Positions 3,204 through 31,548 of a stretch of DNA of 34,635 nucleotides are shown one piece after another. A model generated the notes under the pieces. The model was given only the letters and a program-made list of their open reading frames with translations. It was not told the DNA's origin and did no database searches. How positions within the stretch are numbered: the first letter of the stretch is position 1; every line of letters starts with the position of its first letter. The DNA is taken from the IMG/VR virus record IMGVR_UViG_3300027631_000067, positions 1-34,635 of that record. One strand, given 5' to 3'. The stretch is from a virus. The position numbers and the translations under genes are program-made.

Positions 3204-3630
3204 ATCTTATTACTTTAGCCACGATTATAATTCGGCAAATGATGTTAAAATCTTATTTTTAAGGCAGCAGTTAGGTATGGAGGGTTATGGTATTTATTGG
3301 TTTTTAGTTGAGAACTTAGCACAGGCAGGTGGGATTTTACCCTTAAATATTACTCCAGTATTAGCAATGCAGATGCAGACAAGCGAAGTAAAAGTAAAGG
3401 CAGTTATTGAGCAATTTAATCTATTTACAATAGCCGAAGATGGTTTCTTTTCTAGGAGGTTAAATGACCATTTAGGATTAAGAAAAAAACTAAGCGATAA
3501 AGGTAAAATTGGAGCAGCTTTACGTTGGAAAAATGGGGGGGCTATTACCCTCCCTAATGGGGAGGCTTATGCAAAGAAAGAAAGTAAAGAAATAAATAAA
3601 GGGGATTTTTTAACAAAAATAGTTCTTTAA
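3196..3630 (+). CDS. Lin1244/Lin1753-like (DUF4373) replication protein
   Basis: A 144-residue protein whose first ~95 residues match the Lin1244/Lin1753 N-terminal domain (DUF4373). Typical features are YYFSHDYNSANDVKILFL, the GMEGYGIYWFLVE core and SRRLNDHL before a Lys-rich linker. The domain usually heads a longer replication protein. Here only a short tail follows (RWKNGG..., then Lys/Glu-rich), so the C-terminal part is short or missing. A G7 run at 3535-3541 lies just where the domain ends, but neither alternative frame stays open for long. The gene precedes dnaB, which supports a replication role. Confidence 0.7.
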   Translation: MNKSYYFSHDYNSANDVKILFLRQQLGMEGYGIYWFLVENLAQAGGILPLNITPVLAMQMQTSEVKVKAVIEQFNLFTIAEDGFFSRRLNDHLGLRKKLSDKGKIGAALRWKNGGAITLPNGEAYAKKESKEINKGDFLTKIVL

Positions 3631-3758: not shown

Positions 3759-5078
3759 ATGGCTAAACAACCACCAAATAATAAAGATGTCGAAGATAGG
3801 ATTTTAGGGGTACTATTAATTGAACAAAATTCAGTTCATACATATATAGGAAAAATTACAAGTGAATTCTTTTATCAAACTAAAAATCAACTAATATTTA
3901 AAGCGATACAGGGATTGTATGATAAAATGAGTGCTATTGATATAGTAACTGTATCAAATTACTTGACAAATAAAAAAGAAATGGATTTGGTTGGCGGTGC
4001 TTATGAGATTGTAAAGTTAACTAATAATGTAACCGGCAGCAGTTCAATGAATGATTGGATATTAATCCTGCAGCAATGTTATCTTCAAAGGAAAGGAATT
4101 ACAATAGGTCAGGAATTAATTAATGATTCTTATGTAGGCGAGATTGAGAACCATTTAAATAATGCTTCAACTAAGATTTTAAATGCTCAAGAAAGTATTT
4201 ATAAGAATAGTGAGAAAGGGATGGCGCACTATATTATGAGCCTAGCTAAAGAAAGGGATGCAGTAATTGAGAACGGTCAAATAGGAATAGATACAGGATG
4301 GCAGAGTTTAAATAGATATATTAGTGGATGGGTTAATCCTGATTTAGTAATCTTAGCAGCAAGACCTGCACAAGGTAAGACTGCTTTTATGTTAAATGCA
4401 ATCCTAAATGTTTTAAAACAAGACAAGCCAGTAGGAATATTTAGTTTAGAAATGAGTGGGGAACAATTAGTTAACAGGTTAATAAGTTTGGATTCAGGTA
4501 TTGCACATCATTTACTAAGGACTAATAAACTTACAGAAGCACATAAGTTTATGTTAATGGCTTCAGAGGATAGGTTACAAAAAGCAAAATTATACATTGA
4601 TGACACACCAAGTTTAAATATTAGAGACCTAAGAAGCAAGGCAGCAATATTAAAAAGAAAATATCAAATCGAGTTCTTATGTATTGATTATCTGCAACTT
4701 ATGAGCGGAGTAGACAGAAAGGGTAACAGAGAAAGTGAGATAGCAGAAATTAGTCGAGGATGTAAAATAATAGCAAAGGAATTAAATATACCAGTACTTG
4801 CATTAAGTCAATTAAGTAGAGCAGTTGAAAGTCGTAACGATAAGATGCCACAACTTTCAGACCTTAGAGAAAGCGGTGGCATAGAACAAGATGCTGATTC
4901 AGTTATCTTTTTAATGAGACCTGAGACCTACGGAATAAGAGAAATAGAAGTTGATGGTATGACACATAATGCAGAAGGTAAATGTATAGTTAAAATAGCT
5001 AAAAACAGACACGGAAGTTTAAAAAACATACCATTCCAATTTATAGGAGAAAGAATGGAATTTAAAGAATTATTATGA
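3759..5078 (+). CDS. dnaB: Replicative DNA helicase DnaB
   Basis: A 439-residue full-length DnaB-type helicase that unwinds DNA at the replication fork as a hexamer. The N-terminal primase-interacting domain covers about residues 8-100 (VEDRILGVLLIEQNS... DIVTVSNYL). The RecA-like motor follows, with Walker A ARPAQGKT at 201-208 (the usual first Gly is Ala), FSLEMS at 228-233, Walker B FLCIDYLQLMSG around 306-317 with Asp310, and LSQLSRAVESR with LRESGGIEQDADSV towards the C-terminus. No helicase loader or primase is obvious in the window, so the host primase is probably used. The stop overlaps the methyltransferase start (ATGA). Confidence 0.97.
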   Translation: MAKQPPNNKDVEDRILGVLLIEQNSVHTYIGKITSEFFYQTKNQLIFKAIQGLYDKMSAIDIVTVSNYLTNKKEMDLVGGAYEIVKLTNNVTGSSSMNDWILILQQCYLQRKGITIGQELINDSYVGEIENHLNNASTKILNAQESIYKNSEKGMAHYIMSLAKERDAVIENGQIGIDTGWQSLNRYISGWVNPDLVILAARPAQGKTAFMLNAILNVLKQDKPVGIFSLEMSGEQLVNRLISLDSGIAHHLLRTNKLTEAHKFMLMASEDRLQKAKLYIDDTPSLNIRDLRSKAAILKRKYQIEFLCIDYLQLMSGVDRKGNRESEIAEISRGCKIIAKELNIPVLALSQLSRAVESRNDKMPQLSDLRESGGIEQDADSVIFLMRPETYGIREIEVDGMTHNAEGKCIVKIAKNRHGSLKNIPFQFIGERMEFKELL

Positions 5079-5719
5079 GAGTATTAAATTTATATGCTTG
5101 TCTTGGAGGCAATCGTTTATTATGGGATAATTGCGAAGTTACTGCAGTAGAACTTGACCAGGAACTTGCTAGAATGTATCAAGAAAGATTCCCTAATGAT
5201 AAAGTAATTGTTGCAGATGCACACCAATATTTACTTGACCATTTTAAAGAATTTGATTTTATATGGACTAGTCCACCTTGCCCAAGTCATTCAAGAGCAA
5301 GATATTGGAATAGTTCAAATTACGATACAACTACTGAAGCTATTTATCCAGATATGAAATTATATGAAGAAATATTGTTTTTACAACATTATTATAAAAC
5401 TGGTAAATATGTAGTTGAAAATGTCATACCATTTTATGAACCATTAATTCCGGCAAAAAAAAGAGGCAGACATTTATATTGGACTAATTTTAATTTGCCT
5501 TTAGATTTAGGAGATAGAAGAATACAAATAGGTGCAGGAATAGATGAATTAAATAGACTTTGTTTATTTCATAAAATTGATTTAACAAGCTATAAAGGAG
5601 AACAAAGTTTATTAAAGATTGGTAGAAACCTTGTTGATTATGAAGCAGGATTAACAATTTATAATACTGCAAAAAATATAGTTAAAAATCAAAATATAAA
5701 TCAAATTAATTTATTTTAA
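5075..5719 (+). CDS. Minimal cytosine-C5 DNA methyltransferase
   Basis: A 214-residue SAM-dependent enzyme that would transfer a methyl group to cytosine C5 in DNA. The order of motifs fits the C5 family: motif I NLYACLGGN (5-13, a degenerate FxGxG), acidic VELD (25-28), VADAHQ (46-51), catalytic SPPCPSHS (66-73, Cys69) and motif VI VVENV (113-117). A KRGRHLYWT segment may replace the QxRxR of motif VIII. It is much shorter than typical host Dcm enzymes and has little room for a target-recognition domain. Fused by overlap to dnaB, it is probably made during replication and may protect new DNA from host restriction. Confidence 0.85.
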   Translation: MRVLNLYACLGGNRLLWDNCEVTAVELDQELARMYQERFPNDKVIVADAHQYLLDHFKEFDFIWTSPPCPSHSRARYWNSSNYDTTTEAIYPDMKLYEEILFLQHYYKTGKYVVENVIPFYEPLIPAKKRGRHLYWTNFNLPLDLGDRRIQIGAGIDELNRLCLFHKIDLTSYKGEQSLLKIGRNLVDYEAGLTIYNTAKNIVKNQNINQINLF

Positions 5720-7759: not shown

Positions 7760-9292
7760 ATGATAAAAGTTAAGGTAGATAAAGTAAAAAGCAACCCAAA
7801 GAATCCAAGATTAATAAAGGATGAAAAGTTTAAAAAACTTGTAAAGTCTATTAAGGATTTCCCTGAAATGGAATCAGTACGACCTATTGTAGTAAATAAA
7901 GATATGGTTATATTGGGTGGTAATATGCGTTATAAAGCTATGATTGAATGCGGATATAAGGAAGTTAATGTTGAAGTAGTTGACTGGTCTGAACAAAAAC
8001 AAAATGAATTTATTATTAAAGATAATTTAGGATATGGCGAATGGTCTTGGGATGACATTGCAAACGAATGGGATATGGAGCAGTTAGAAGGATGGGGAAT
8101 GGATTTACCTGTATTTGATTATAAAGAAATAGAAGCAGAAGAAGATGACTTTGATGTGCCGGATGGTGGAATTGAAACTGATATTGTATTAGGAGATTTA
8201 TTTGAGATTGGAGAGCATAGATTATTATGCGGAGATTCAACTGATAGCGATTCAGTAGCAAAATTAATGAATGGTCAGAAGGCTGATATGGCACACAATG
8301 ACCCACCATATGGAATGAAGAAAGAAAAGCAAGGAGTATTAAATGATAATCTTAATTATAGTGATTTATTAAATTTTAATAGAGAATGGATTGGCTTACA
8401 ATTTTTGCATCTTAAAGAAAACGGAAGTTGGTATTGTTGGGGTATTGATGAACCACTTATGGATATTTATAGTGAGATATTAAAGCCATATATTGCAGAA
8501 CAAAAAGCAACATTTAGAAATTTAATTACTTGGGATAAAGGACACGGACAAGGTCAAAATTCAGATAATACCAGGAGTTATGCAATAGCAGATGAAAAAT
8601 GTTTATTTGCTATGATGGGAGTGCAAGGATTTAATAATAATGCAGATAATTATTTTGATAAATGGGAAACAATAAGAGTATATTTAGAACAAGAAATAAA
8701 AAAACTAAATGAATCCGATGGCAAAATTGCAACCGCTTTAGGTTACAAAGATGGAAGAACTGTAAACCATTGGTGGAGTAAATCACAATGGAATTTTCCA
8801 ACAAAAGAAAATTATGTAGCATTAAAAGAATATAGTAAAACTAAAAACATAGATGCTTTTAAAAAGGAATACGAAGAACTTAAAAAGGAATACGAAGAAC
8901 TTAAAAAGGAATACGAAGAACTTAAAAAGGAATATTATTCAACACGAGCATATTTTAATAATATACACGATAATTTTAATAATGTTTGGAAGTTTGAAAG
9001 GCATTTGCGACAAGGAGATGAAGGAGGACACGCAACACCTAAACCAATTTCATTATGTGAAAGAGCAATTAAATCAAGTTGCCCAGATAAAGGATTAGTT
9101 TTAGATGTATTTCTTGGTAGCGGTTCAACAATGGTAGCTGCTAATCAACTTAATCGCAAATGTTACGGTATTGAACTTGACCCTAAGTATTGCCAAGTGA
9201 TAGTAACTAGAATGCTTAAACTTGACCCAACATTAACCATTAAAAGAAATGGTATTGATGAAACGCAAAAATGGTTAGATGAACAAATGTAA
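7760..9292 (+). CDS. ParB-like domain fused to N4/N6 DNA methyltransferase
   Basis: A 510-residue fusion. Residues ~1-85 form a ParB/Srx-like domain (KSNPKNPRLI; VILGGNMRYKAMIECG at 50-65). A methyltransferase follows with catalytic DPPY at 181-184 and a C-terminal SAM-binding motif FLGSGST near 451-457, then CYGIELDPKYC. DPPY before FxGxG is the beta-class order, so the product is N4-methylcytosine or N6-methyladenine. Between them sits an insertion with KKEYEEL heptads (368-391). Such ParB-MTase fusions are common on phages and are thought to protect DNA from restriction. No cognate endonuclease is adjacent. It overlaps the next gene by 14 bases. Confidence 0.92.
   Translation: MIKVKVDKVKSNPKNPRLIKDEKFKKLVKSIKDFPEMESVRPIVVNKDMVILGGNMRYKAMIECGYKEVNVEVVDWSEQKQNEFIIKDNLGYGEWSWDDIANEWDMEQLEGWGMDLPVFDYKEIEAEEDDFDVPDGGIETDIVLGDLFEIGEHRLLCGDSTDSDSVAKLMNGQKADMAHNDPPYGMKKEKQGVLNDNLNYSDLLNFNREWIGLQFLHLKENGSWYCWGIDEPLMDIYSEILKPYIAEQKATFRNLITWDKGHGQGQNSDNTRSYAIADEKCLFAMMGVQGFNNNADNYFDKWETIRVYLEQEIKKLNESDGKIATALGYKDGRTVNHWWSKSQWNFPTKENYVALKEYSKTKNIDAFKKEYEELKKEYEELKKEYEELKKEYYSTRAYFNNIHDNFNNVWKFERHLRQGDEGGHATPKPISLCERAIKSSCPDKGLVLDVFLGSGSTMVAANQLNRKCYGIELDPKYCQVIVTRMLKLDPTLTIKRNGIDETQKWLDEQM
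8861..8934 (+). repeat. 21-bp tandem repeat, 3.5 copies (KKEYEEL heptad)
   Basis: Identical 21-base units begin at 8861, 8882 and 8903, with an 11-base partial copy at 8924-8934. Each unit encodes the heptad KKEYEEL, giving a short charged coiled coil inside the methyltransferase. Perfect identity at the DNA level indicates recent expansion by slippage. Copy-number change keeps the reading frame and alters only linker length. Confidence 0.95.
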
Positions 9293-9791
9293 TGATATAG
9301 TACTAGAGATATACAACCATCCTGACCTTATAAAAGCGATAAGCAAGACAAAGCCTGAATCAATACAAGACGATTTAAGACAAGAAATAGCAGTTAGCTT
9401 ACTACTTCAGCCTTGTGATAAGATATCAGCCCTATTCGCCTCTAATAACTTATTAAGGTATGCAATCAAGATATGTTGGTTTATGGCTACTTCTAAGACA
9501 AGTGAATTCTATTATAAATATAAAAAAAGTGATTTATTAAAGGCAGTTGAGTATTTTAATAGTCAATTAGATTTACCTACGATTCCTGAGAGTTTAGCAG
9601 TTGAGGCAGCAAAAGCGCTCACAAAAAATAACATAGACATAGAAACAGACCACGAAATAAGAATATTTAATAAATACGTAGAACTAGGCAGCAATAGAAA
9701 AGTAGCAGAGTATTACGGAATACCAGTTAATCACGTTTGTAATATTACTAACAAAGTAAAAAAAGAATTAAGATGTTTATTATACCAATAG
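9279..9791 (+). CDS. Sigma-like helix-turn-helix protein, 170 aa
   Basis: A 170-residue all-helical protein. An N-terminal acidic helix pair (DDLRQEIAVSLLL, then LLRYAIKICWFMA) recalls sigma region 2. The C-terminal segment (NRKVAEYYGIPVNHVCNITNKVKKEL, about 139-164) reads as a helix-turn-helix like sigma region 4. It could be a phage transcription factor switching on late genes, which begin shortly downstream. The match is weak and a TerS-like HTH is an alternative. Confidence 0.5.
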   Translation: MNKCNDIVLEIYNHPDLIKAISKTKPESIQDDLRQEIAVSLLLQPCDKISALFASNNLLRYAIKICWFMATSKTSEFYYKYKKSDLLKAVEYFNSQLDLPTIPESLAVEAAKALTKNNIDIETDHEIRIFNKYVELGSNRKVAEYYGIPVNHVCNITNKVKKELRCLLYQ

Positions 9792-10012
9792 CAGCATTTA
9801 CATTTGCTTATTATTTCATTAATGTATTTAATGGGCATATCATACTAAAGCGCATATTCAAAATACCTTTAGTAAAAAGATTAAAACCCTTTGACTGCAT
9901 TCAATGTTTAACAGTATGGAGTGCTTTATTATTTACCTTTTTACCAATACATACAGTAGAATTAATAGCAATAATATTCGGAGCAGGGTTTATATCAATT
10001 AAAATAAAATAG
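9773..10012 (+). CDS. Small membrane protein with CxxC motif
   Basis: A 79-residue protein with a hydrophobic N-terminal helix (FIIPIAAFTFAYYFINVF), a basic loop, then PFDCIQCLTVWSALL (Cys42, Cys45), and a last hydrophobic helix to the C-terminus. The PFxCxxCxxxW pattern between membrane segments resembles DUF1360-type small phage membrane proteins. It overlaps the preceding gene by 19 bases. Its stop codon TAG overlaps the first bases of the tRNA-like element. Confidence 0.6.
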   Translation: MFIIPIAAFTFAYYFINVFNGHIILKRIFKIPLVKRLKPFDCIQCLTVWSALLFTFLPIHTVELIAIIFGAGFISIKIK

Positions 10013-10114
10013 TCAGGTGGCGGAATTGGTAAACGCAAGTATACCGTAGCAACTATGGTCGGAGGGTACTTATAGTACAAGGTTGCATTGCAGGTTCGAA
10101 TCCTGCCTTGACTA
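10011..10114 (+). tRNA. tRNA-Leu-like element with abnormal centre
   Basis: A 7-bp acceptor stem pairs 10011-10017 with 10107-10113 (one G-T). A Leu-type D arm (GCG at 10020-10022, CGC at 10034-10036, loop GAATTGGTAAA) and a canonical T arm (GCAGG/CCTGC around TTCGAAT, 10090-10106) are clear. CCA is not encoded. The centre (10037-10089) is 53 nt, longer than in a type II tRNA. A hairpin at 10043-10059 (ACCGTAG/CTATGGT) shows CAA, a Leu anticodon, at its tip, but without U33 and after a 6-nt linker. GTACT/AGTAC at 10066-10078 could be the variable arm. It may be an aberrant tRNA, a pseudo-tRNA or a tRNA mimic. Confidence 0.55.
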
Positions 10115-10136: not shown

Positions 10137-11132
10137 ATGAACATAATAGGAGTAACACATAAAGAATCAGGATGCGGATATCACAGAGTAATGTTACCAC
10201 TTGCTTTTATGAATGACATAAAGGGCTATGTAACCAATTATATAACAGAAGATAAGACTGATGATTGGGATTTATTACTCTATAATAGGATATGCCAATA
10301 CGATATAAATTGGAACAAAACTAAGGAATTACTTGGATGTCAAGTAGTTATGGATATTGATGACCATTGGCAACTACCACTTAACCATCTTTATTATAAT
10401 ACTTACCAGGATATAGCTGAAAGGATTGAAAGGAATTTAATGCAGGCTGATTTGGTTACGGTTACTAATTCTAATTTATTGAATAAAGTAAAGCAATTTA
10501 ATGATAATGTAATTGTAATGCCTAATGCCTTACCCTATGGATTGAATCAGTTTAACGATACTAAAGTTAAGTCTGATAAAGTAAGATTGTTTTGGTGTGG
10601 GAGCATTAGCCACGATAACGATATTAAGATATTAAAAGAACCGTTAAAAAGGTTACAAGGTAGAAAGGATATTCAAATGGTAATGGGTGGATATAATGAT
10701 AGCGATGCTTATACTAAGTCAATATGGGATAAAATGTTTTCTATGTTTACTGGTAATTTGCCATCAATAAAATTACATTCAGCTAGTCCTACTCAGTATA
10801 TGGATATGTATAACTATGCCGATATTGTATTGATACCTTTAGAAGATTCAGAATGGCACGCTTGCAAAAGCAATTTAAAAATATTAGAAGCAGCAGCAAA
10901 AAGATTGCCGGTCATTTGTTCAAACGTAGCACCTTATAATATGGATGTAGATGCACCTGTATTATGGGTAAACAATCAAAAGGACTGGTTCAGGTATATT
11001 AATTTATTAACTAACAACCCAAGCCTAAGGGAAAATTTAGGCAATGAACTATATGCGTGGGCGACCAAAAGGTACAACTTCAAAGAAATTAATCAACAAC
11101 GATACGATGCCTACAAAAGCATTATTAGTTGA
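10137..11132 (+). CDS. GT4-like glycosyltransferase
   Basis: A 331-residue GT-B-fold glycosyltransferase. The N-terminal half has a VTHKESGCGYHRVMLPL loop and DIDDHWQLP near residue 80. The C-terminal half shows LFWCGSISHDNDI and the donor-binding region YADIVLIPLEDSEWHACKSN, then LKILEAAAKRLPVI. It transfers a sugar from an activated donor, but the acceptor is unknown: modified phage DNA, virion protein or a host surface molecule are all possible. A SAM methyltransferase two genes on suggests a small modification cassette. The 3' end overlaps the next gene. Confidence 0.85.
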   Translation: MNIIGVTHKESGCGYHRVMLPLAFMNDIKGYVTNYITEDKTDDWDLLLYNRICQYDINWNKTKELLGCQVVMDIDDHWQLPLNHLYYNTYQDIAERIERNLMQADLVTVTNSNLLNKVKQFNDNVIVMPNALPYGLNQFNDTKVKSDKVRLFWCGSISHDNDIKILKEPLKRLQGRKDIQMVMGGYNDSDAYTKSIWDKMFSMFTGNLPSIKLHSASPTQYMDMYNYADIVLIPLEDSEWHACKSNLKILEAAAKRLPVICSNVAPYNMDVDAPVLWVNNQKDWFRYINLLTNNPSLRENLGNELYAWATKRYNFKEINQQRYDAYKSIIS

Positions 11133-26577: not shown

Positions 26578-26902
26578 ACAACCAGTTTATCCGATTGCTT
26601 GTTTTTCAATTAATTCAGGTAGTTTAAATTTAGGTAGAGAACAGATATACAATGTTCAATTTTTCTTTTTAGATAAAAGTGGTAAGGAAGCTGAATACGA
26701 GAATGATGTAATCAGCGACCAAGTACAGATAGCTTCTGATATTTTAAGTTTAATGCGTACAGGAAGGAATAGTTATTCAATAGATGAAAATATTACTTTC
26801 AATGCGATATCGGATAAGTACGAAGATTATTTGGCAGGGGTGGAGTTAACAATTAATATTTCAACACAAAATCAATTTACTGGATGCGACGTGCCATTAT
26901 AA
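26471..26902 (+). CDS. Tail terminator/completion-like protein
   Basis: A 143-residue protein between the connector and the fibre. Features are YPIACFSINSGSLNLGRE, YNVQFFFLDKSG, and the ending KYEDYLAGVELTINISTQ with TGCDVPL. I associate the LAGxxxxxxI...CxxP ending with tail-completion proteins of Bacteroidota phages. It would cap the tail tube and join it to the neck. It overlaps the fibre gene by 19 bases. Confidence 0.55.
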   Translation: MTYNQLITTITSLLQNHEMIKTAKYATPKEWLLRDEQPVYPIACFSINSGSLNLGREQIYNVQFFFLDKSGKEAEYENDVISDQVQIASDILSLMRTGRNSYSIDENITFNAISDKYEDYLAGVELTINISTQNQFTGCDVPL

Positions 26903-29900
26903 CATTATTAGTTTTATTATCTTTTGGATTAAAAGCGCAGGTTTACCAAGCTATGCCACAAGCAGGATATGGTCCTGTTAAACGTATGTTATTTGATAGT
27001 GTATTAACTATTCCGTTGAATATCAATCAATTAAGAAATATAACAGGTGGTAGGGATGCCGGTCAAATAAGATATAATGTTAGTGATAGTGGTTTATATG
27101 TATTTACAGGATATACTTGGATTAAAGCTAACTTAGATAGTGTTAATTTATCGAATAGAATAAATGGTAAATTAAACGTTACAGATACTGCTTATATGCT
27201 TAGTTGGTATATGAGAAAGACCGATACTTTAAGTTTATCAAATAGGATTAATTTAAGGGTAAAATATACAGATACTGCAGCGATGTTAGACCCATATTTG
27301 AGAAAGCTAGATACTGCTAGTTTATCAGATAGAATTAATAAAAAACAAAACGCAATAACATTAACTACTAATTTTAAAAGTGGTGCTTCAACTTTAGTAG
27401 GTGCAACATTAAATATTCCTAAGTATAGCGATACATTACAAGATAATTATGTGCCATATGTAGGTGCGATTAAGGATGTAGATTTAGGAGCATATAAATT
27501 AAATGCCAATACTTTACAATCTGATTATTTATTACAAGTTAAAAATAGTCCAACTTCGATTGCTCCAACAAAAGGCTATACTGCAATTACAGGTATGGAA
27601 AGTGGGTTAGTATTATATTCAAGTTGGATGACAGGAAATACAACTTATACTCAACAGAACTTTATAAATTATGCTAATACTAATTTACAAAACAATACAA
27701 GGCAATATAATTTACCAGTAAGAAATGGAACTTTAGCATTAGTAGAGGACACGGTTAATCTATCCAATAGAATTAATTTAAAGGCAGATAAAGCAACTAC
27801 ATTAACGATTAATGGAGTAGGATATGATTTAAGTACTAATCGTACTTGGACTATACCTACTGTTGATACAACATCTTTATCTAATAGATTAAATTTAAAA
27901 CTAAATATCAGCGATACGGCAGCAATGCTTAGTCCTTATCTTAGGAAAGCAGATACAAGTTCATTATCTAATAGGATTAATTTAAAATTAAATAGTGCAG
28001 ATACATTAAGTTTATCAAATAGGATTAATCTAAAGGCTGATAAATCAACTACACTATCTATTAATGGAACAAGCTATGATTTAAGTGCAAATAGAAGTTG
28101 GACTATACCTACTATCGATACTACATCATTATCCAATAGGATTAATTTAAAAGTTAACATAAGTGATACTGCAGCAATGCTTAGTCCTTATTTGAGAAAA
28201 GTAGACACAACTAATGCTTTTTTAACTGCAGTATCTCAACCTAATGACTCAACATTATCTTTTGTAAAGGGAAGTACATTAACAAGCTATACAATAAGAG
28301 CAAGTACACAAGGTAGTGCGGTTAAGTTAATTACAAACGTATATAATAATAGTGGTGCAACCATATTAAAGGGTAGTGTAGTTTATATTAATGGCGCACA
28401 TTCAAGTAACTTACCTACTATTGCTCTAGCTATTGCAAATAATGAATCAACATCTGCATTTACTTATGGATTAGTAGAAAGCAACATACCTAATAATTCT
28501 GCAGGAACAGTAGTACAAAATGGTGTTTTAACTGGATTAAATTTACCTACTTCAAGTTATACCGATGGGCAAACTTTATATTTAAGTCCTACAGTTGCAG
28601 GTGGATATACTACTACAAAAGTTATTGCACCAAATCATTATGTAGCTATTGGAACGGTTATAAGAGCGCATCCAAATTTTGGAACTATCCAGGTGGCAAT
28701 TAGAAATGGATTTCAGCTAGATGAATTGAGTGATGTATTAATTGCTGCAGTCCCTTTAGATAGTACAGTTTTACAATTTAGTAGAGTAGATAGTTTATGG
28801 CACGATGTAAGTATTACAAATGCTATTGGTTCAAAATATATAAAGCCAACTGATACTACTTCGCTTTCTAATAGAATTAATGCAAAAGCGGATGCACTAA
28901 GCGGAACTACAAACACAGTACCTAAATTTACTTCATCAACTACAATAGGTAACAGTAATATTAAAGATAACGGAAATGCGGTTACAATAAATGCAACTGC
29001 AGGAAGTTTTGGTGCTTTGCAAGTAGGTAGCTACAATGGTAATATTTTAATGAATACTACCAATGCAAATGGAGGTTTAATATTTCAAAATACATCATCA
29101 TCTAATAAGTTATGGGATTTTTCTTCTGATAACAATGATTTAGTTTTTAATGAATCAAACGTTGCTCCAGTAATGAAATTAAAAGCAGGTGGTAATGTAG
29201 TAATATCAAATCTTTCAGGTACAGGTACTCGTATGGTCGTGGCAGATGCAAATGGTGTATTATCTACACAAGCAATAAGTAGTGATACAACTTCATTAAG
29301 TAACCGAATTAATTTAAAATTAAATATTAGTGATACTGCTTCTATGCTTTCTCCTTATTTACGTAAAGTTGATACGGCTAGTTTAAGCAATAGAATTAAT
29401 ACTAAGCAAGGAACAATAACATTAACAACTACAGGCACAAGTGGAGCAGCAACCTTTAGTTCTAACACATTAAACATTCCTCAGTATCAAGCTGCAGGAA
29501 CTTATGTTACAAGTGTTACAGGAACTTCTCCAATAGTATCAAGCGGTGGTACTACACCTGCTATTTCTATACCTGCTGCAACAAGTTCAGTAAATGGATA
29601 TTTAAGTTCTACTGATTGGAGTACTTTTAATGGTAAACAAAATGCTATTAATGGAACAGGCTTTGTAAAGGCTAGTGGCACTACAATTAGTTATGATAAT
29701 AGTACTTATTATCTAGCATCTAATCCAAATGGATATACAAGTAATACAGGAACGGTTACAAGTGTAGCAACTGGCTTAGGATTAAGTGGTGGTACAATTA
29801 CAACATCAGGAACATTATTAGTTGATACTTCAAGTGCTTCTATTCTTAGCAGACAAAGGGCAGCTAATACTTATGCTACTACTTCATCATTAAGTGGATA

Positions 29901-31548
29901 TCTACCATTAACAGGTGGTGCACTTACAGGTGCTTTGGGTGGGACAAGTGCTACGTTTACAAGTTCAAGTTTTCCATTAGATGTTTATGGAACTACAAAT
30001 AACTATGGTTTAAGAATTAATAATGTACAAGCTGCTACATTATTTTTATATTCAAGTAATGCAAATGCAGCTAGTCGAAATTGGGGATTATTTACAAATT
30101 ATAATGCTTTTGGTGATTTTGCTATTGCTCAATCAAATGCAATTAATGGAGATTTAACTAATGGTGCAAATGGTACTTCAAGGTTTTATATATCTAATGG
30201 AGGAAATATAGGAATAGGAACTACAACAGATGCAGGCTACAAGTTAGATGTTAATGGTACAGGAAGGTTTAGTGGGAATTTAACTGCTTTATCAATAACT
30301 ACAAGTGCTTATTCTTATTTATATGGGTTGAGAATTAGTGGCAATGATGTAGGCAATACAATTTATCAAGCAACAGGTTCTTTAGGTATATCAACAGGTG
30401 GTAGTTCTATAACTTTTAATCCATCACTTACTACAGCTTTAACATTAGCCTCTACAGGAGCAGCTACATTCTCTAGTTCATTACAAACAAATTCATATCA
30501 AATAATTAATGGAGTTGCAGGAGGTACAAGTACATATTTACAATTTAATAATAATGGAAGTACAATAGGATATATTGGAAGTGCTGCTGCTATTAATGGT
30601 GGGGCAAGTACATCTATAGCTTTAGGTAATTCAAGTGGATATGGATTAACAATTAATTCTTCAAGTGGAGCAGCTACATTCTATAGTAGTGTAACGGCAA
30701 ATACTGGGTTTTATTTACCATCGGGTGGTAGTGGTACATCACCAACTATTTCATATCTTAATTCATTAACTTATGGATTAAGTGCATCGGGTGGTAATGC
30801 GGGTATTTATTTTGGTAATACATACAATAGCGATTACTCTACAGGAATGCAATTTAGAGTGGTTAATAGCGGTGGCTCTAATGTTACTGCAATGACTATA
30901 TCTCCAATAGGCAATGTAGGAATAGGAACTACAAGTCCTGCAAATAAGTTAACAATTAATGGTAGTGCTTCTGCTGCACAATTTAATATAACAAGGTCTG
31001 AAGAACCTAGTCAAGGATTCTCAATACAAGCAGGAGGTGGCATAACTACATTTAATAGTTATGAAGGAACTAATGTTGTTTATGGAGATTACGCTTTTAA
31101 TAGTACAAAGGGTTCTGCTACTGTTACAAGAATGAGTATAAATGGTAGTGGAGCAGTTACAATTAATAATTTAGGCACAGGAACAGTTTATTCAAATAGC
31201 GGAACACTTACTAATACTAACCCTTCAGATAGTAGTTTAAAAAATTCTATTGAACCGCTTTCGTATGGTTTAACTGAAATATTACAATTACAACCTAAGA
31301 CATTTTATTACAATTCAGATACTGCAAAGTCTAGTTTAAAATACGGTTTTGTTGCTCAAGATGTTCAACCTATTATGCCCGATATAGTTAGACCAATAGG
31401 TAACGGAAGCGATAAATTAGGACTTGAAAGTGATGGAATATATGTTACAATGGTAAACGCAATCAAAGAACTTTCAGCACAAATAAAAGAACTATCAGCT
31501 AAAAATGAAGCATTAATTAAAAGAATAGAAACATTAGAAAACAAATAA
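26884..31548 (+). CDS. Tail fibre/spike with S74 chaperone and signal peptide
   Basis: A 1554-residue fibre. The N-terminus is a Sec-type signal (MRR, hydrophobic ITLLVLLSFGL, then KAQ at 17-19). Residues ~80-840 contain eleven near-copies of SLSNRINLK with linked blocks such as DTAAMLSPYLRK, suggesting a repetitive trimeric shaft. A long Ser/Thr/Gly/Asn-rich beta region follows. The end, from SDSSLKNSI (Ser1448) to the coiled-coil tail, is the peptidase S74 intramolecular chaperone (YGFVAQDVQPIMP), which helps trimerise the fibre and then cuts itself off. It would bind the host surface. Confidence 0.88.
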   Translation: MRRAIITLLVLLSFGLKAQVYQAMPQAGYGPVKRMLFDSVLTIPLNINQLRNITGGRDAGQIRYNVSDSGLYVFTGYTWIKANLDSVNLSNRINGKLNVTDTAYMLSWYMRKTDTLSLSNRINLRVKYTDTAAMLDPYLRKLDTASLSDRINKKQNAITLTTNFKSGASTLVGATLNIPKYSDTLQDNYVPYVGAIKDVDLGAYKLNANTLQSDYLLQVKNSPTSIAPTKGYTAITGMESGLVLYSSWMTGNTTYTQQNFINYANTNLQNNTRQYNLPVRNGTLALVEDTVNLSNRINLKADKATTLTINGVGYDLSTNRTWTIPTVDTTSLSNRLNLKLNISDTAAMLSPYLRKADTSSLSNRINLKLNSADTLSLSNRINLKADKSTTLSINGTSYDLSANRSWTIPTIDTTSLSNRINLKVNISDTAAMLSPYLRKVDTTNAFLTAVSQPNDSTLSFVKGSTLTSYTIRASTQGSAVKLITNVYNNSGATILKGSVVYINGAHSSNLPTIALAIANNESTSAFTYGLVESNIPNNSAGTVVQNGVLTGLNLPTSSYTDGQTLYLSPTVAGGYTTTKVIAPNHYVAIGTVIRAHPNFGTIQVAIRNGFQLDELSDVLIAAVPLDSTVLQFSRVDSLWHDVSITNAIGSKYIKPTDTTSLSNRINAKADALSGTTNTVPKFTSSTTIGNSNIKDNGNAVTINATAGSFGALQVGSYNGNILMNTTNANGGLIFQNTSSSNKLWDFSSDNNDLVFNESNVAPVMKLKAGGNVVISNLSGTGTRMVVADANGVLSTQAISSDTTSLSNRINLKLNISDTASMLSPYLRKVDTASLSNRINTKQGTITLTTTGTSGAATFSSNTLNIPQYQAAGTYVTSVTGTSPIVSSGGTTPAISIPAATSSVNGYLSSTDWSTFNGKQNAINGTGFVKASGTTISYDNSTYYLASNPNGYTSNTGTVTSVATGLGLSGGTITTSGTLLVDTSSASILSRQRAANTYATTSSLSGYLPLTGGALTGALGGTSATFTSSSFPLDVYGTTNNYGLRINNVQAATLFLYSSNANAASRNWGLFTNYNAFGDFAIAQSNAINGDLTNGANGTSRFYISNGGNIGIGTTTDAGYKLDVNGTGRFSGNLTALSITTSAYSYLYGLRISGNDVGNTIYQATGSLGISTGGSSITFNPSLTTALTLASTGAATFSSSLQTNSYQIINGVAGGTSTYLQFNNNGSTIGYIGSAAAINGGASTSIALGNSSGYGLTINSSSGAATFYSSVTANTGFYLPSGGSGTSPTISYLNSLTYGLSASGGNAGIYFGNTYNSDYSTGMQFRVVNSGGSNVTAMTISPIGNVGIGTTSPANKLTINGSASAAQFNITRSEEPSQGFSIQAGGGITTFNSYEGTNVVYGDYAFNSTKGSATVTRMSINGSGAVTINNLGTGTVYSNSGTLTNTNPSDSSLKNSIEPLSYGLTEILQLQPKTFYYNSDTAKSSLKYGFVAQDVQPIMPDIVRPIGNGSDKLGLESDGIYVTMVNAIKELSAQIKELSAKNEALIKRIETLENK

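Follow-up and report, generated by a model that had tools for sequence, protein, structure and literature searches.

What is a virus doing with a gene that has the body of a transfer RNA (tRNA) and a centre that does not fold like one? This question is raised by the tRNA-Leu-like element at positions 10011-10114 of IMG/VR virus record IMGVR_UViG_3300027631_000067, whose complete 34,635 nucleotides were analysed and are hereafter called the window. A preliminary description of this DNA had considered three possibilities, namely a decayed tRNA, a decoy against host anticodon nucleases, or an RNA using the tRNA shape. From comparison with related elements, it appears to be a non-decoding, tRNA-shelled RNA, and phages, hundreds of which carry similar RNAs with widely differing interiors, seem to have put the tRNA body to this other use; both the shell and the pseudoknot that it encloses are very probably under selection.

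The Rfam tRNA model (RF00005) aligns to the whole of 10011-10114 on the + strand (41.8 bits, gathering threshold 29), which confirms the previously proposed boundaries, and is the only RNA family of Rfam matched in the 34,635-base record; neither the transfer-messenger RNA (tmRNA) model (RF00023) nor any intron family matched the window. The acceptor stem (7 bp), the D arm with its Leu-type loop, the T arm and A73 are all intact, and together with the tertiary core they provide a tRNA body, in the window element as in its family. A73 and U48 are present, as in tRNA-Leu, and a pseudoknot helix stands where the variable arm of a class II tRNA would be. As had been suspected, the 53-nt centre is not a standard anticodon arm: it fails to match that arm of the Rfam model, it has no 5-bp stem with a 7-nt loop and U33, and ARAGORN called no tRNA, no tmRNA and no tag reading frame in the window, so that no standard tRNA fold was found. 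The minimum free energy (MFE) fold of the element is only mildly better than those of shuffled sequences (z -1.63), MFE folding being incapable of showing pseudoknots, and this unremarkable result meant that a chance origin had to be tested through relatives. Chance is excluded because the element is conserved in unrelated phages (records of 34, 24 and 175 kb).

Pattern scans recovered the class of the window element, class I, in unrelated records as well, for example L039 (174,694 b), L040, L044, L260, L264/L270, L268 and L271 (L and G numbers are our own labels). The class I alignment comprises eight distinct sequences, which hardly vary in the core AGTATACCGTAGYAACTATNGNCGGA...AGGTTRCAYT. 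Two folds of the centre had been put forward. The one previously offered as the alternative, helix S2 between 10049-10053 and 10082-10086, is paired in 8/8 homologues, with a two-sided change from C-G to U-A in L039 and L260. In contrast, the hairpin CCGUAG-CAA-CUAUGG, taken to display CAA as a Leu anticodon, is without U33 in the window and has its second pair broken in 6/8 homologues, which rules out a Leu(CAA) anticodon. An AAGUA/UACUU pairing was likewise rejected, being compatible with the window but not with the relatives L039 and L040. The hairpin located between the two halves of the core is swapped among relatives with its self-complementarity kept (UGUGC-GAYU/ARUC-GCAUA, AACU/AGUU, GUG-GCAA-CAC).

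Beyond class I, a gapped search pattern (Leu-type D arm, 47-77 nt, T arm) matched at least 120 viral stretches; counts from this viral scan are lower bounds on family size, and the figures given here and below refer to the matches listed. A minimum of 6/7 acceptor pairs is reached by at least 124 elements, which comprise at least 95 distinct centres of 44-74 nt. The reversed control pattern gave 0 matches in 46 whole records, all of which are recovered by the real pattern. The pattern imposes the letters of the D and T loops and leaves U8, residue 48, the acceptor and helix S2 free. Among the distinct-centre elements, U8 is found in 95/95, and the acceptor stems, with 45 different sequences, are, apart from rare exceptions, paired over their full seven positions. 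Residue 48, just before the T stem, is U in 94/95 A15-type elements and C in 39/41 of those retrieved by another search, in which the D arm was of G15 type; the Levitt pair 15-48 therefore covaries between the two types. That the tertiary-core residues, the pairing of the acceptor stems and helix S2 are kept across 95 divergent members, and that the pseudoknots covary, argues strongly against the decayed tRNA of the preliminary description. Although ordinary tRNA arrays do occur in certain of the phages and the window element is rejected by a standard tRNA finder, such a pseudogene is scarcely credible.

The same positions bear on another idea, that the RNA is charged by leucyl-tRNA synthetase (LeuRS) and donates its leucine outside translation. 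LeuRS does not read the anticodon, and A73 (74/95 elements), A14/U8, A15-U48 and the long helix 2 nt before the T stem resemble identity features of tRNA-Leu. However, non-Leu D arms are found in related shells that share the acceptor, G15-C48 elements occur with A, G, T or C at position 73, and the elements have no amino-acid-using partner gene. We consider a leucine-donating RNA quite improbable.

The unconstrained best-pseudoknot energy of whole centres was weak against shuffles (mean z -0.85, versus -0.78 for nested folds), and only the position-anchored pseudoknot tests are informative. Helices show a sharp positional peak where their 3' strand stops exactly 2 nt short of the T stem, like that of a class II variable arm, and helices so anchored have a mean best energy of -6.4 versus -3.8 in shuffled sequences, with 43 strong stems versus 10.8 expected. 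In the 58 elements with a strong S2, crossing helices are enriched (10 at p<=0.05 vs 2.9 expected) whereas nested hairpins are not (4 vs 2.9 expected). Loop 3 is A-rich (42% vs 34%), and many interiors have no detectable strong fold. The clearest covariation was obtained in class E (L100, L155, L331 and L373), where S1 is kept as ACG/CGU and S2 appears as GAUAAC/GUUAUC, GAACAC/GUGUUC, GGGUAC/GUACUC and GGGUAU/AUACUC, with 100% pairing, two-sided changes at three pairs and a covariation of 0.556 versus 0.212 in shuffles (reached in 1/500). Because class E repeats the layout of the window (three pairs, a UA spacer, then S2), with ACG/CGU replacing CCG/CGG, it indirectly supports S1 in the window. 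Classes B, C and D, whose stems were hand-picked, contribute more two-sided changes in S1 and S2 with their four strands in crossing order, and an 84-nt element of L148 has S1 as CUGG/CCAG, S2 as CGGG/CCCG and a UUAGAAA loop between the S1 and S2 3' strands. The two crossing helices of an H-type pseudoknot are present, judging from class E and the family test, and in the window S2 is firm and S1 tentative. The covariation in related phages, suggested earlier as a check, was recovered as compensatory changes within classes, where the centre does not drift at random; between classes, the centres are completely different.

This contrast between shell and centre is most evident in the shell AGTCAGG...ACAGGTTCGAATCCTGTCCTGACTA, which recurs around unrelated interiors with total lengths of 65-148 nt. 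Its D arms differ and include non-Leu types, with D-loop insertions in L149 and L155; one record can hold up to six of these shells (105-kb G044), and L148 has four within 1 kb. A canonical anticodon arm was found in 2/121 AGTCAGG shells of ordinary tRNA length (65-93 nt), where 1.35 were expected by shuffling, and the same test was passed by 487/605 ordinary tRNAs in the loci. Shells given an isotype by ARAGORN passed it in only 2/59 cases. These two results indicate that the loss of the anticodon is systematic and that automatic isotype calls may be spurious. The extra 20-50 nt near the anticodon region could also be thought of as a small intron that is spliced to restore the anticodon arm, or the whole as a recombination cassette acting as DNA instead of RNA, whose identical shell ends could promote cassette exchange. 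Nevertheless, shells of ordinary length equally lack the arm, and a DNA-only cassette is disfavoured because RNA tertiary covariation is meaningless for DNA; both versions are very unlikely. An RNA that uses the tRNA shape, the last of the three possibilities considered earlier, is supported, as is the pseudoknot.

Several other tRNA-like genes were observed during the scans. Phages with knotted elements frequently have genes that ARAGORN labels 'tRNA-???', with anticodon loops of 6 or 8 nt (L053, L088, L110, L116, L121, L123, L127, L148, L155 and L165). In L038 (also L047 and L049), positions 2645-2778 hold a 134-nt tRNA-like composite, an outer tRNA shell around T-arm-like and D-arm-like hairpins, and positions 3537-3608 a tRNA with an undersized anticodon loop; this Bacteroides element also has a pseudoknotted Leu-type RNA. 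A 65-nt tRNA-like element at L042 2400-2465 lies a few nt past a pseudoknotted one and carries a GATACT complementary to its neighbour's AGTATC. A second recurring shell, TGACCCT...AGGGTCA G, combines a G15-C48 core with 48-50 nt centres and a common AGTACT motif (L186, L208, L217, L222, L223, L233, L234 and L238), and related tRNA-like genes with conserved GCTCGG...GTACGTGCTGAG-AGGTC centres, some in isolate genomes, occur in L195, L200, L204, L210 and L227.

As for the genomic position of the window element, it begins within the stop codon of the upstream open reading frame (ORF), as had been noticed, since the TAG occupies 10010-10012. The downstream glycosyltransferase gene allowed 36 sibling loci to be collected. 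The element is present at the same junction in L002, L005 and L009, and about 30 sibling phages do without it, their flanking genes there being close or overlapping (e.g. ...AAAATAG-ATACAAAAGCA...). The window element is a moron-like insertion. Sibling phages of the window have a second shell, 148 nt long, which precedes the glycosyltransferase gene by about 3.5 kb. An ordinary tRNA-Gly(UCC), absent from the window, is found in two sibling phages (L015 2830-2902 and L028 2807-2879).

In the family as a whole, 69 elements are co-directional with both neighbours versus 6 opposed to both, and elements are often <30 nt from a stop or start codon. This distribution, together with the stop codon overlap in the window, is what would be expected of punctuation in the messenger RNA (mRNA), that is, a harmless tRNA-shaped target of RNase P and RNase Z separating or protecting phage messages, with the anticodon removed to avoid mistranslation. 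Such a role is improbable: the sibling phages lacking the element manage at this very junction, the ordinary tRNAs of the same phages could serve as well, and the retention of pseudoknots over short loops would be left unexplained. ARAGORN-called tRNAs also occur in 39/93 loci, with some arrays of about 20, and the ordinary tRNA-Leu genes in element loci carry other acceptors. No recurrent partner gene family was found within 5 kb of the elements, which fits an action through host factors.

Outside the viral scan, an exact 27-mer search of genomes gave no match, and a shorter query gave three Bacteroides genomes, which carry an L038-type element, and one chance match. Among 395 Bacteroidota genomes, there were 1 true match and 2 tRNA-Leu-like genes whose anticodon arm is extended; in L256 and L257 (Bacteroidota genomes G221 and G084), tRNA-Leu-like genes combine a long extended anticodon hairpin with a normal variable arm. 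An INPHARED search retrieved no AGTCAGG-type relatives and no L038-type or L105-type elements, and a match in LR756501 turned out to be an ordinary tRNA-Leu. A cultured example is available in Bacteroides phage BS-TP2, which infects Bacteroides salyersiae; its element (PQ571275.1:19550-19657) is unannotated and located between gp31 and gp32 among replication and recombination genes. We found no description of such RNAs in the open-access literature, preprints and most subscription papers being outside this search.

Table 1. Features of the tRNA-like element and its flanking genes (window coordinates).
Feature	Position	Strand	Evidence or remarks
Upstream 79-aa ORF, hydrophobic	9773..10012	+	No Pfam/PHROG match; TAG stop shares 2 nt with element
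tRNA-like element (whole), tRNA shell with pseudoknotted centre	10011..10114	+	RF00005; homologues L002, L005, L009, L039, L040, L044, L260, L264, L268, L271
Acceptor stem 5' strand AGTCAGG, pairs with 10107-10113	10011..10017	+	100% of cells paired, 8 homologues
U8	10018	+	95/95 family members among matches listed; not imposed by search
D arm, tRNA-Leu type: stem 10020-10022/10034-10036; A14, A15, G18, G19	10020..10036	+	Sequence, Rfam alignment
S1 5' strand CCG, pairs with CGG 10060-10062 (tentative)	10044..10046	+	Class I invariant; class E equivalent ACG/CGU, same UA spacer
S2 5' strand GCAAC, pseudoknot helix	10049..10053	+	8/8 paired; C-G to U-A in L039, L260
S1 3' strand CGG (tentative)	10060..10062	+	Class I alignment
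Lineage-specific hairpin GUAC-UUAUA-GUAC, loop 3	10066..10078	+	Other self-complementary hairpins in relatives
S2 3' strand GUUGC	10082..10086	+	8/8 paired; ends 3 nt before T stem (family peak 2 nt)
U48 equivalent, Levitt partner of A15	10089	+	Family statistics at residue 48
T arm GCAGG-UUCGAAU-CCUGC	10090..10106	+	Sequence, Rfam alignment, homologues
Acceptor 3' strand CUUGACU + discriminator A73	10107..10114	+	CCA not encoded, CTA next
Downstream glycosyltransferase gene	10137..11132	+	PHROG 7162, E=1.7e-63; served to find sibling phages

Elsewhere in the window, a 510-aa protein (7760-9292) fuses a ParB-like nuclease domain to a DNA methyltransferase domain, a 214-aa protein (5075-5719) was matched by a C-5 cytosine methylase model at the first 80 positions only, and a 1554-aa protein (26884-31548), probably a tail or fibre protein, has a C-terminal Peptidase_S74 chaperone domain.

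How, then, could such an RNA act? The element would be transcribed within a phage operon, the bias of the family towards co-directional neighbours (69 versus 6) speaking for sense transcription, and excised by the tRNA-maturation enzymes of the host, RNase P (cutting at U-1/A1) and RNase Z, followed by CCA addition. Such a release is likely, and the ends agree with it: there is an excess of U at -1 and of C following A73, similar to that seen for tRNAs, and CCA is encoded in only 6/95 elements. Once folded, the RNA would have its acceptor-T arm, D arm and elbow in normal form while, judging from the comparisons, an H-type pseudoknot replaces the anticodon and variable arms, and it could not decode. 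The conserved tRNA body would be the working part, a stable, probably CCA-tailed top half of a tRNA shown to some factor of the host with affinity for tRNA bodies (a defence toxin acting on tRNA, a sensor of aminoacyl- or deacyl-tRNA, EF-Tu or a synthetase), for which the RNA may serve as a sponge or decoy. The knot would keep it compact and off the ribosome, allowing its sequence to drift widely. The decoy of the preliminary description is thus conceivable in general, albeit doubtful; one aimed specifically at anticodon nucleases is unlikely, since the RNA would present them with no anticodon loop. For the complete proposal, a non-decoding tRNA mimic that is operon-transcribed, tRNA-processed, knotted and acting as a sponge or decoy, we estimate a probability of roughly 0.45.

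Some of our results weigh against this proposal. In the window, S1 has only 3 bp and is invariant in class I, and thus provides no covariation signal there; moreover, neither the multiple copies that one genome can carry, each with another interior (a 105-kb phage has six shells), nor the highly conserved class I centre is obviously needed by a pure decoy. These copies and this centre favour instead a natural tRNA scaffold, in which the shell would be a stabilising or processing wrapper and each pseudoknotted interior a payload RNA in its own right (an aptamer-like inhibitor, or an RNA that acts by antisense or binds proteins), swapped as cassettes through the identical shell ends. One shell around unrelated interiors, the covarying folds that interiors retain of their own, and a class I centre common to phages of differing genome size are all in line with a scaffold. 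However, payloads would not require such a strict D arm and 15-48 pair, and many interiors have no strong fold that we could detect; the scaffold, the chief alternative, is less likely than not, and the strict retention of the elbow in unrelated elements favours the tRNA mimic.

In a broader formulation, which we would give about an even chance, these elements form a large, previously undescribed class in phages of Bacteroidota and other bacteria, with a maturation-competent tRNA body, interchangeable pseudoknots in place of the anticodon domain and an arrangement as single genes or cassette arrays, acting on the tRNA-binding machinery or the defence of the host during infection. As the standard tRNA finder misses such genes or assigns them spurious or undetermined isotypes, a very common type of phage RNA may be overlooked. 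The elements present a natural separation of the tRNA body from the anticodon, with many divergent pseudoknots within a fixed scaffold, and a possible means for phages to engage with the processing of tRNA, with translation or with defence systems that target tRNA; phage BS-TP2 makes the family directly testable.

In comparison with known systems, the phage element lacks the defining feature of a tRNA, the anticodon arm, has no tmRNA match, and its position is unlike that of plant-virus tRNA-like structures. It shares with tRNA and tRNA-Leu (RF00005) the acceptor, D and T arms, U8, the 15-48 pair, A73 and an unencoded CCA, as in many bacterial tRNAs, and differs in that the 3' strand of the variable arm pairs with the enlarged S1 loop to form the pseudoknot. 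In tmRNA, a tRNA-like top half is combined with pseudoknots, as in the phage elements, but the latter do not match the Rfam tmRNA model (RF00023), have a complete D stem, measure only 65-148 nt and contain no tag frame detected by ARAGORN. The 3' tRNA-like structures of plant viruses are viral RNAs that mimic tRNA with the help of pseudoknots; their place is the 3' terminus of an RNA genome, and their acceptor itself is formed by a pseudoknot, whereas the phage element is an internal gene of a DNA phage in which the acceptor is normal and the anticodon domain is knotted. The TMERs of murine gammaherpesvirus 68 (MHV68) and the mascRNA-type RNAs use a tRNA-like module for the processing of non-decoding RNA, but are eukaryotic and carry their payload outside the tRNA fold. 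Finally, in synthetic tRNA scaffolds a recombinant RNA is inserted at the anticodon, within the tRNA body; the phage elements, in contrast, are natural, phage-borne and diversified.
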